In this document: positions 39,511 through 43,406 of the stretch, one piece after another
Layout: each line of letters starts with the position of its first letter
Position numbering within the stretch: the stretch's first letter is position 1
NCBI GenBank assembly: GCA_902619835.1
Contig: CACNFS010000004.1
Location: 1 to 64,000 of the forward strand
Length of the DNA stretch: 64,000 bases
Source: an uncultured Pelagibacteraceae bacterium
GTDB taxonomy: Bacteria; Pseudomonadota; Alphaproteobacteria; Pelagibacterales; Pelagibacteraceae
Direction of reading: 5' to 3'
Position numbers and translations under genes: made by a program
Notes under the pieces: model-generated
Databases searched by the model: none
What the model was told of the DNA's origin: nothing
What the model saw: the letters and a program-made list of their open reading frames with translations, nothing else

Positions 39511-39688
39511 TAGAGATTTTTATTATTATGATATTAATATATCATATTGTGAGGTGAATTAGATTTATAATGACAAATAATTAGATAAACCGAGGGCAAA
39601 CTGGAAGACAACTTTAGATTTAGTAGCAAAAATACACCATGAGACACAGTGCAGTTTGACTATTTCTATTATTATCTTATTCAAAGCT
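39511..39688. other. non-coding gap between the GT9 gene and the cyclase gene
   Basis: This 178-bp AT-rich region holds the divergent starts of the glycosyltransferase and cyclase genes. Its middle (about 39585-39655) is noticeably less AT-rich than its surroundings and contains one copy of the 16-bp repeat that also lies after the cassette. No tRNA, known riboswitch or clear promoter was recognised. Confidence 0.5.
39598..39613 (+). repeat. upstream copy of cassette-flanking repeat
   Basis: AAACTGGAAGACAACT at 39598-39613 matches AAACTAGAAGACAACT at 42440-42455 in 15 of 16 positions and the same orientation. The two copies bracket the cyclase and glycosyltransferase genes and nothing else. 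Confidence 0.55.
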
Positions 39689-41428
39689 ATGATTTCTAAA
39701 ATAATTAATAATTTTTCAAATTACTTTATTTTAAATAGTAAAGATTATTTAGTTGGTCAAAATTTAATAGAAGATTTTGCAAATAATAAATACTTTGAAA
39801 GTTTATTAATAAATTTAGCGGAGATAAATCCGTATGACCCCAAAATTTCAAATGAATTCTTAAAATTAGACGCTATCTCGGCTTTGCCTCATTTAAGAGT
39901 GCTAAAAACTTCTTTAAACTTAACTACTGAAAAGTTTATTCTTGAGCTTTCTTTTCTTGTTTTACCTTTTAATGAGCATTTATCAAAAGAATTAAAACTT
40001 TTATCCTCAAAAATTAGTGATACGAAATTCGGAAAAGCTAAATTGATTTCAAATTTATTAACCAGTTCAAAACATCTATTTTACAAGCAACTTACTTTAG
40101 ATTATGAGAAAAAAAATCCTCTAGCTTTATATCCAACCTCTAGTTATAGAAATTCAAGTGGTCACGTCGTTAGTTCAAATGATTATCAACAGATAGAGGC
40201 AACCATGAGCCTAAATACTTTTACATCAATTAAGGTAGAAGAAAATACACTAAATATTAAAAATCCTCTCTTAAGAGATAATTATAAATCATTTGGAAGA
40301 TGTATTTGTTTGGTAGACCAAAATATTGAGGAAAATTATGGACAAGAAATTGATAATTATTTTAATCATAACAAAATTATTTTAGAAAAACTGATTTATA
40401 GGGCTATGGAAGTTGATAAGCATATAAAAAATGTTGAGAAAATAGTTGAAGATTTTAGAAGATTAGGCGTAAATAGAAACGAACCTATACTAATAATTGG
40501 AGGAGGGGTCATTGGAGATATAGGAGCTTTTGCTGCATCTATTTATCATCGAAGCACTCCATATATAATGCTGTCAACATCTGTTGTAAGTGCAATAGAC
40601 AGTGGACCAAGTCCAAGGTCGTGTTGTGATGCTGGTGGATTTAAAAATCTTTTAGGTTCTTTTCATGCTCCAGTGCTTAATATATCTGATCGTTCATTTT
40701 TCAAAAGTTTAAAAACTTCTTGGGTCCGTCATGGAATTGCTGAAATACATAAAATGGCAGTAATTAGAGATGCAGAACTTTTTAATTTACTTGAAGATAC
40801 TGGACATGATTTAATGAAAACTCACTTTGGTACAATTAATTGCAATCATCAAGATGAAATTGTTTCTAAATCAAAAAAAATAATTGGATTATCTTTGAAA
40901 AGTTATGTTGAGAGCGAATATGATAATTTACATGAAGTTCATAGTATTAGAGATCATGCTTTTGGTCATGGATTGAGTGCAAACTTCGAACTTAAAGCAG
41001 GATTACTTCACGGACATGCAATAAGTGTTGAGATGAATTTAAGTTCTTTTATGTCATATAAAAGAGGGTGGATGAGTGAAAAAGATTTGCATAGAATTTT
41101 TAGATTATTTAGTGAGTATGAATTAAGTTTGTGGCATGATATTTTATTAGATGAAAAATGTATGAATCAAGGATTTGATAAAATTTTGCAAAAAAGGGGA
41201 GGTAATTTAGCTATTCCAGTTCCATCTAGCATTGGAAAGTGTAAATATATTAACGATCTAACAAAAACTGAATTAAAAAATATTATTCAGGAATATAAGT
41301 TAATAGTTTCAAAATACCCAAGAAAAGGACTAGGTATTGAACCTCTTTGTTCAGACGCGGGGCTGGAAGACCCTGTGACTGTTTTTAAAACAGATGAAAA
41401 AATTTCCAAAGAAGCAAATTTAAATTAA
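39689..41428 (+). CDS. sugar-phosphate cyclase (sedoheptulose-7-phosphate cyclase/dehydroquinate synthase superfamily) with extra N-terminal region
   Basis: 579 residues; ATG 39689 is chosen over TTG 39656. Residues ~195-555 match the superfamily: NAD-site GGGVIGDIGAF (271-281), zinc ligands Glu 352 (GIAEIHK), His 427 (AFGHGLS) and His 441 (LLHGHA), Lys 319-Asn 320 (FKNLLGSFHAP) and Lys 355. The ending NLAIPVPSSIGKC resembles epi-valiolone-type cyclases more than dehydroquinate synthase. The lysine that follows the conserved Asp 304 by six residues is Arg 310. Residues 1-190 match no domain I know. It probably cyclises a C7 sugar phosphate to a cyclitol; substrate unknown. The glycosyltransferase-like gene follows 4 bp later. 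Confidence 0.8.
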   Translation: MISKIINNFSNYFILNSKDYLVGQNLIEDFANNKYFESLLINLAEINPYDPKISNEFLKLDAISALPHLRVLKTSLNLTTEKFILELSFLVLPFNEHLSKELKLLSSKISDTKFGKAKLISNLLTSSKHLFYKQLTLDYEKKNPLALYPTSSYRNSSGHVVSSNDYQQIEATMSLNTFTSIKVEENTLNIKNPLLRDNYKSFGRCICLVDQNIEENYGQEIDNYFNHNKIILEKLIYRAMEVDKHIKNVEKIVEDFRRLGVNRNEPILIIGGGVIGDIGAFAASIYHRSTPYIMLSTSVVSAIDSGPSPRSCCDAGGFKNLLGSFHAPVLNISDRSFFKSLKTSWVRHGIAEIHKMAVIRDAELFNLLEDTGHDLMKTHFGTINCNHQDEIVSKSKKIIGLSLKSYVESEYDNLHEVHSIRDHAFGHGLSANFELKAGLLHGHAISVEMNLSSFMSYKRGWMSEKDLHRIFRLFSEYELSLWHDILLDEKCMNQGFDKILQKRGGNLAIPVPSSIGKCKYINDLTKTELKNIIQEYKLIVSKYPRKGLGIEPLCSDAGLEDPVTVFKTDEKISKEANLN

Positions 41429-41432
41429 TTTC

Positions 41433-42410
41433 ATGTATCAATTTGTTATCCCTGTTCATCATGTGACCTGGAGCACAAGAGCAGTCCTTGAGGGTATTTA
41501 TGAAAAATATAAGCCAAAACATATTTATGTTATTACAACAGAAAATGAGATAAAAATTTTAAAAGACAAGTCAAATTATTGGAAAATTAAAAATTTAACT
41601 TTATTAGATGAAGATAATTTTTTTTTAAACAAATACGGTTTAACAAAAAATGATATTATATCTCAAATTACTCAAAACAAACCAAATTACACTCCTGGAT
41701 GGTTATATCAGCAGATTATTAAACTTGGAGCTAATGATGCTATAGATCAATTAGATGAAGTTTTTGTGATATGGGACTCCGATTTATTACCAGTTAGATC
41801 TTGGCCAATACTAAATGAAAAAAAGGAAAAGTTTGCTTTACTACAAGATAAATCTTATGGAAATAAGGATATTTTAAATTCATGGAAAAATTTAATTATA
41901 AATGTTTTGGGGATTAATCCTGTTGAGGATGAAAGAGGAACATTTACTTCACATCATATGATTTTTAAAAAAAAGTACTTAAAAAGTCTCAAATTAAAAT
42001 TTAAAGATCATTTTAAATCTGATCAAAATTGGATTGAATTGATAATAAAAGCTGCAAATATTTATGGTTCTTTTGGTGAATATTGGACTTATGCTAGCTG
42101 GGTAAATCATATCAATAAAGACGATCTTAATTATTATCCTTACGAAAAATACGGTTTAACTACAGAAAGATTTTTTGATGATGGCAATGGTTTATTTTCT
42201 AAAAATTATAAAAAACATATAAGTTTTAAAGAAGAAGAAGATTTTTATCCATCTTACTCTTCGATATTAAATTTTATTCGTAAAAATTATCACTCTCTTC
42301 CTTCTTCTTTATCATTTGAAACAAACATCAGACATACAAAAAAAAGAGATGATAATATCCATCTTGAGGAAAAGAGATCTATTTGGAGAGAAAAAAAACA
42401 CAATTTATAA
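41433..42410 (+). CDS. GT-A-like putative glycosyltransferase (DUF6492-like)
   Basis: A 325-residue soluble protein. It starts with a beta strand, FVIPVHHVTW, and has WLYQQIIKLGA (90-100), then FVIWDSDLLPVR with a DxD motif at Asp 115-Asp 117, SHHMIFKK (173-180) and FGEYWTYASWV (214-224). This order of motifs resembles DUF6492 glycosyltransferase-like proteins (DxD for metal/nucleotide sugar, then an EY-Y motif). There is no signal peptide or membrane helix. It is 4 bp downstream of the cyclase, so the two are very likely one operon and may act on the same product. Family placement is by eye. Confidence 0.68.
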   Translation: MYQFVIPVHHVTWSTRAVLEGIYEKYKPKHIYVITTENEIKILKDKSNYWKIKNLTLLDEDNFFLNKYGLTKNDIISQITQNKPNYTPGWLYQQIIKLGANDAIDQLDEVFVIWDSDLLPVRSWPILNEKKEKFALLQDKSYGNKDILNSWKNLIINVLGINPVEDERGTFTSHHMIFKKKYLKSLKLKFKDHFKSDQNWIELIIKAANIYGSFGEYWTYASWVNHINKDDLNYYPYEKYGLTTERFFDDGNGLFSKNYKKHISFKEEEDFYPSYSSILNFIRKNYHSLPSSLSFETNIRHTKKRDDNIHLEEKRSIWREKKHNL

Positions 42411-42439
42411 ATTCAGCAATTTAGCAATTTTTAATAACA

Positions 42440-42455
42440 AAACTAGAAGACAACT
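42440..42455 (+). repeat. downstream copy of cassette-flanking repeat
   Basis: AAACTAGAAGACAACT, the partner of the copy at 39598. It also begins a short tandem repeat (ACTAGAAGACA then ACTAGAAGATA, 42442-42463). It lies in the 134-bp gap between the glycosyltransferase gene and tRNA-Leu, which otherwise shows only a weak promoter-like TTGTGT at 42502. Confidence 0.55.
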
Positions 42456-42544
42456 AGAAGATAGAGGCGGAAAATAAATTATTTTTACTTATTTAAAACA
42501 CTTGTGTATTAATATATTAACAATAACAATAAAAATAACGACGT

Positions 42545-42630
42545 GCCCTCGTGGTGAAATTGGTAGACACAAAGGACTTAAAATCCTTGCCCTTTTGGGA
42601 GTGCCAGTTCGAGTCTGGCCGAGGGCACCA
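42545..42630 (+). tRNA. tRNA-Leu (UAA)
   Basis: A type II tRNA of 86 nt with encoded CCA. The acceptor arms GCCCTCG and CGAGGGC pair perfectly. The anticodon stem AAGGA/TCCTT holds the loop CTTAAAA with anticodon TAA. A long variable arm and the T-loop GTTCGAGTC are present. nadK starts 9 nt after it. Confidence 0.95.
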
Positions 42631-42638
42631 CTTTAAAA

Positions 42639-43406
42639 ATGTATAAACCGTTAATTATATCTGATAAAAATCTCAAGTCTGTAAAGATAAAAAAAAAGGT
42701 AATTAAGATTTTCCAAAAAAAATATCTTAAAAAGAATAATATTGTTTTAGTAATTGGTGGAGATGGATTTATGTTAAAAATTTTAAAAAATAATAAAAAA
42801 ACAAAAAAATTTTTTTACGGTATAAACTCAGGTAATTACGGTTTTCTTATGAACAAATTTTCAAGAAAACATTTAATTAAAAATATATATAACTCGAAAA
42901 TGATAAGTATATCTCCATTAGAAATGATTGTTAAAACTAAAAATAATATTAAAAAATGTTTAGCCATCAATGAGGTTTCTATCTTAAGACAAAGTAGGCA
43001 GGCAGCTAATTTATCAATAAAAAATAAATCGAGTTATATAATAAAAAAATTAGTTTCTGACGGGGTTTTAGTTTCAACACCTGCTGGAAGCACAGCCTAT
43101 AATTTATCTGTGCATGGGCCAATTTTAAGCTTAAACTCAAAAAAAATTTCAATAGCGCCGATAAGTGCATTTAGACCAAGAAGATGGGTTGGAAAAATTG
43201 TGAGTGATAAATCAAAAATTTTAATTACTAATTTAAACCCCATAAAGAGGCCTGTAAGCGCAGTTGCTGACAATTTGGAAATAAGGCATGCAAAACAAAT
43301 CAAAGTTTGTACTCAGGATAAAATAAAATTTAACCTTCTTTACGATAAAAACAAAAGTTTACAAAAAAAGATTAAATTAGAACAATTGAGAAAAGAAACT
43401 TTTTAG
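42639..43406 (+). CDS. nadK: NAD kinase
   Basis: Phosphorylates NAD to NADP. The 255 residues carry the signature VIGGDGFMLK (about 38-47), GINSGNYGFLMN, the NE motif in AINEVSILR, and the SDGVLVSTPAGSTAYNLS glycine-rich domain. It lies between two tRNA genes in opposite orientation and probably shares the tRNA-Leu transcript. The stop codon is 1 bp from the tRNA-Thr 3' end. Confidence 0.94.
   Translation: MYKPLIISDKNLKSVKIKKKVIKIFQKKYLKKNNIVLVIGGDGFMLKILKNNKKTKKFFYGINSGNYGFLMNKFSRKHLIKNIYNSKMISISPLEMIVKTKNNIKKCLAINEVSILRQSRQAANLSIKNKSSYIIKKLVSDGVLVSTPAGSTAYNLSVHGPILSLNSKKISIAPISAFRPRRWVGKIVSDKSKILITNLNPIKRPVSAVADNLEIRHAKQIKVCTQDKIKFNLLYDKNKSLQKKIKLEQLRKETF

Follow-up and report, generated by a model that had tools for sequence, protein, structure and literature searches.

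The window analysed here, a stretch of 64,000 nucleotides from an uncultured bacterium of the Pelagibacteraceae (SAR11 group; assembly GCA_902619835.1, contig CACNFS010000004.1), contains a gene for a sugar phosphate cyclase of 579 aa at positions 39689–41428 of the forward strand. With a probability of about 0.58, this protein is a metal- and NAD-dependent cyclase of sedoheptulose 7-phosphate (S7P) that belongs to a clade resembling 2-desmethyl-4-deoxygadusol synthase (DDGS), produces 2-desmethyl-4-deoxygadusol or a close gadusol-type cyclitol, and passes it to a DUF6492 protein encoded next to it. DDGS, also called MysA, starts the synthesis of mycosporines, which are natural sunscreens. SAR11 bacteria are among the most abundant cell groups of the surface ocean and have a stripped-down genome. 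If true, a two-gene gadusol-type route kept in SAR11 would make these bacteria a surprising source of sunscreen or solute chemistry, and the cyclase would serve as a natural experiment on whether arginine can take the place of the phosphate-pocket lysine, present in all other cyclases compared, without a change of reaction.

The ATG at 39689 matches the residue numbering used here, and the orthologs conserve M1 at this site as their start; a longer frame with TTG from 39656 is also present. From around residue 180 onward, the protein contains the Pfam domains DHQ_synthase (4.2e-21) and DHQS_C (2.7e-14). Both domains, three metal ligands and the catalytic Asp, Lys and Asn are those of the sugar phosphate cyclase superfamily. 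The protein starts with an additional N-terminal domain, about 170 aa long (39689–40210, forward strand like all residues below), which has no Pfam match, is common to homologs in two other alphaproteobacteria (genomes G784 and G1057) and ends in NPxxLxPTSxYRxSxGxVVSSxD.

Among solved structures, the closest relative is the DDGS of Anabaena (chain 5tpr, 2.4e-68), followed by ValA, a 2-epi-5-epi-valiolone synthase (EEVS; 1.2e-44), and by 3-dehydroquinate synthases (DHQS; 1.7e-25 or worse). In a maximum-likelihood tree, the SAR11 cyclases and the G784 homolog form the sister group of DDGS with a support of 100/99 and are not nested inside it; the support for this relation is good, but the sampling of DDGS in the tree is thin, at two sequences. 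Judged by sequence, the SAR11 cyclase groups with the S7P cyclases. It carries E410 (40916–40918), A424 and H443, which is the DDGS pattern, where EEVS has Leu, Asp and Glu. The pair Glu/Ala versus Leu/Asp is said, after work by Kean in 2014 and Osborn in 2015, to be a fingerprint that separates DDGS from EEVS, and was compared here with the aligned 5tpr and 4p53 (ValA) only. The SAR11 cyclase has the DDGS pair and lacks that of EEVS. H443 completes a DDGS-type HGH (H441 to H443; 41009–41017), while most other cyclases have HGE.

The active-site residues were compared in an alignment of 34 sugar phosphate cyclases, 28 from outside the clade (DHQS, EEVS, EboD, DDGS and two unassigned) and six from inside it. 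The SAR11 cyclase retains every catalytic or metal residue that is universally conserved. As a first-pass annotation of the window had claimed by comparison with the DHQS AroM, D304 (AroM D146; 40598–40600), K319, N320, K355 and the metal ligands E352 (E352 to K355; 40742–40753), H427 and H441 are kept. The alignment also bears out that R310 (40616–40618) occupies the position of AroM K152, A424 and A431 those of N268 and H275, and SPRSCCD (residues 308–314; 40610–40630) that of GGKT[GA][VI]N. The interval of 40598–40962 proposed for these residues is too short, as it ends before H427 (40967), A431 (40979) and H441 (41009); A424, H427 and A431 lie within 40958–40981. In the column of AroM K152, arginine is found in all six clade sequences and lysine in all 28 outside, and R310 aligns there without a gap toward D304 or K319. 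The GGKT-type lysine, a common but not formal mark of the superfamily, is thus replaced. The columns N314, T298, L338 and M406 are also substituted across the whole clade. Residue 502 is Lys in the SAR11 cyclase, Thr in DDGS and mostly His in EEVS, and K502 is a candidate for a lysine that fills the pocket from elsewhere.

SPRSCCD and the surrounding pocket show no variation among the SAR11 copies that cover the motif, and the ratio of nonsynonymous to synonymous substitution rates (dN/dS) of the cyclase between genera is about 0.09, which points to strong purifying selection. On these two grounds, the sequences describe a maintained enzyme rather than drift. With its metal ligands and its invariant catalytic residues also intact, the cyclase is probably catalytically active, in agreement with the first-pass annotation. 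At columns 424 and 431, DHQS have Asn and His, EEVS have Asp and Pro, DDGS have Ala and Pro, and the SAR11 cyclase has Ala and Ala, with Ala431 seen only in SAR11 among the aligned cyclases. The earlier statement that the changes at these two sites also occur in epi-valiolone-type cyclases is therefore incorrect.

The most informative relatives are found in sunscreen gene clusters. G784, a member of another alphaproteobacterial order, encodes a full-length homolog that is 50% identical, N-terminal domain included, and has the motif SPRTCCD. Directly downstream are genes for an O-methyltransferase (47.5% identical to the mysB product of Nostoc), a MysC-like ATP-grasp protein (42% identity with the MysC of Nostoc), a MysD of the D-Ala ligase-like type and a HAD hydrolase. 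In G1057, of the same order, the B-C-D-HAD order lies downstream of an SPRTCCD cyclase fragment cut at contig ends. HAD genes have been reported in mycosporine clusters of Pseudomonadota (PMC11888242). The cyclase is thus encoded with mysB and mysC in G784 and G1057, but not in SAR11. Because SPRTCCD and the N-terminal domain recur in the mysA-B-C-D clusters of these two alphaproteobacteria, the exchange of lysine for arginine is, as far as the sequences tell, a mark of a DDGS-like clade. The arginine-CC pocket thus occurs in pathways that are expected to make sunscreens in the ordinary way, and it can be explained without a new substrate. A photolyase-related protein (DPRP) is encoded directly upstream of the G784 cluster (L083:5962-7482), which fits a light-stress context.

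The first-pass annotation had regarded the arginine and the double Cys as unusual and suggested a different substrate. For the arginine, the former holds against the 28 other cyclases, all of which have lysine, and it is qualified by the recurrence of SPRTCCD in the two mys-cluster alphaproteobacteria. This recurrence only partly answers the thought that the motif might be common in a characterised clade: the clade has the context of mycosporine-like amino acid (MAA) clusters but is known from sequence alone. A substrate different from that of DHQS is indirectly supported by the grouping with S7P cyclases and by a separate probable AroB in the genome. A substrate unlike that of any known cyclase does not follow, as the same motif is found in cyclases of mysABCD clusters, so that the change would be consistent with the usual DDGS reaction.

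The second gene of the SAR11 cassette (41433–42410, forward strand) begins 4 bp downstream of the cyclase gene and encodes a DUF6492 protein of 325 aa (PF20102, 1.6e-10). A DUF6492 gene follows the cyclase gene at every other locus too, and is present in 9 of 294 SAR11 genomes, every one a cyclase carrier; the cassette is rare, occurring in about 3% of SAR11 genomes. Two aspartates in a DxD arrangement, D115 and D117, are invariant among 11 diverse members of the family, which also have a GW..QQ..K motif in common. These motifs make DUF6492 a possible GT-A glycosyltransferase. Its profile matches to solved chains were rejected as repeat or chance matches.

The cassette extends over 39511–42638 and fills the space between GT9 and nadK. 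In G034, a relative from the same genus, the site is empty and these two genes are about 160 bp apart. It is located in a variable island with cinA or GT9 on one side and nadK on the other. Between genera, the cyclase/DUF6492 pair has a protein identity of 83–87% and a synonymous divergence (dS) of 0.7–1.0, compared with 54–73% and 1.4–2.1 for most flanking core genes; tuf is an exception in protein identity (88%, dS 1.8). This closer similarity of the pair suggests that the cassette was transferred between genera. The nadK genes at the island edge (window 42639-43406; L033:10991-11683) are 47% identical where the cyclases are 95% identical, therefore the island edge also exchanges. No relative of the cyclase was found in the viral contigs searched, and phages and plasmids yielded no full-length homolog, only other cyclases at low identity. 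One SAR11 copy (L050:8001-9716) has an in-frame stop and an open frame of 541 aa, not 579. In one carrier, a NodU-like carbamoyltransferase gene upstream of the cyclase replaces the usual neighbours (L043:443-2650). Most Pelagibacter-type carriers (L034, L035, L041 and about 15 other loci) have a divergent glucosylglycerate module close upstream of the cyclase, with sucrose-phosphorylase-like, GpgS-like and MPGP-like genes. A functional link was rejected, as GpgS is encoded in 87 of 294 SAR11 genomes, the majority of which lack the cyclase, and the window genome yielded no GpgS.

The substrate of the SAR11 cyclase is most likely S7P, judging from its placement. By analogy to DDGS, the reaction would involve NAD-dependent oxidation, phosphate elimination, reduction, aldol ring closure and dehydration; the route of DDGS to desmethyl-4-deoxygadusol is summarised in PMC4426668. 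R310 would contact the phosphate and do the job of the absent lysine. The ring product is probably handed to the DUF6492 protein, perhaps a glycosyltransferase, and the end product would be a small solute with a protective role, not a classical MAA.

Several observations weigh against this reading. The lysine of all compared cyclases is absent at R310, Pro431 and Trp429, both retained in the two relatives from mys clusters, have been lost in SAR11, and the branch leading to the SAR11/G784 clade is long (1.16). Searches of ten SAR11 carriers, most of them with incomplete genomes, detected no MysC homolog even at E values of up to 1, so that the classical mys pathway is not present there in the form known from the relatives. 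The MysB-like methyltransferase of the carriers is core in Pelagibacteraceae and not specific to them, and was rejected as a partner of the cyclase. Profile searches of DUF6492 against solved glycosyltransferases gave no credible match, and AlphaFold models of the cyclase and DUF6492, built with 19 and 12 SAR11 sequences, have very low pLDDT values of 33.0 and 41.7.

It is possible, though rather doubtful, that the SPRSCCD pocket and the N-terminal domain shifted an S7P-group cyclase to a new product or substrate, with the loss of the mys genes, Pro431 and Trp429 marking the change. Such a shift would fit the exchanges K-to-R, N-to-D, T-to-S, L-to-F and M-to-Y, all at positions that do not vary in the other S7P cyclases, as well as the long branch, the SAR11-only changes at 429 and 431, and the presence of DUF6492 where MysC was not found; most of the pocket changes, though, also occur in the homologs from mysABCD clusters, which are expected to carry out the DDGS reaction. 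An EEVS-type enzyme that supplies 2-epi-5-epi-valiolone for a C7-cyclitol glycoside is very unlikely: among characterised groups, EEVS comes next in closeness after DDGS, but it has Leu and Asp where the cyclase has Glu and Ala, and the tree groups the cyclase with DDGS. Just as improbable is a catalytically dead or structural protein, which the lost pocket lysine might suggest, given the invariant active-site region, the kept metal ligands and the dN/dS of about 0.09. A second DHQS for the shikimate pathway is scarcely credible, for although Pfam and NCBIfam call the cyclase AroB-like (153.5 bits, below the aroB cut-off of 305 bits), it has Ala at both phosphate-site positions where DHQS carry Asn and His, and a second PF01761 protein on another contig of the window genome, probably its ordinary AroB, scores far better against the family model (8.9e-46).

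The DDGS-like S7P cyclase thus remains the preferred explanation. More tentatively, and with odds clearly against it, SAR11 may possess a two-gene pathway, undescribed in the literature searched, that does without mycosporine ligases: its arginine-pocket cyclase would yield a new cyclitol or a glycosylated gadusol, which would serve cells of the surface ocean as a protective or osmotic solute. No paper linking SAR11 to gadusol or mycosporine synthesis was found in that literature, from which subscription papers were mostly excluded.

Compared with known systems, the cyclase shares the fold family and the metal and catalytic residues with DHQS (AroB/AroM, PDB 1dqs), but not the Lys, Asn and His of the phosphate pocket. 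EboD, the product of which is unknown (PMC5133447), is a sugar phosphate cyclase from the same part of the tree, but retains the lysine, has Leu/Asp and lies in ebo operons. An ebo-type set (TIM barrel, EboD-like cyclase, UbiA) occurs in another alphaproteobacterium (L084:6587-11098). EEVS (ValA) is of the same superfamily and probably uses the same substrate, but has Leu at 410 and Asp at 424 and keeps the GxKT lysine. Compared with DDGS (Anabaena variabilis, PDB 5tpr; Nostoc sp. HK-01), the SAR11 cyclase has Arg for the pocket lysine, SPRSCCD for AIKVAVN and Ala for Pro431, an N-terminal domain absent from the cyanobacterial enzymes, and no MysC found alongside it. The DDGS pocket motifs GHTWSP and AIKVAV read GHGLSA and SPRSCC in SAR11, while the mys-cluster relatives retain GHTWSP but have SPRTCC. 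Because it departs from DDGS in both motif and context, the protein is not called DDGS itself. Nevertheless, its cyclase domain is about 37% identical to the Nostoc HK-01 enzyme, and with the sister position in the tree, E410/A424/H443, all catalytic invariants and relatives in the same mysBCD context, it is best described as a variant that would work like DDGS.
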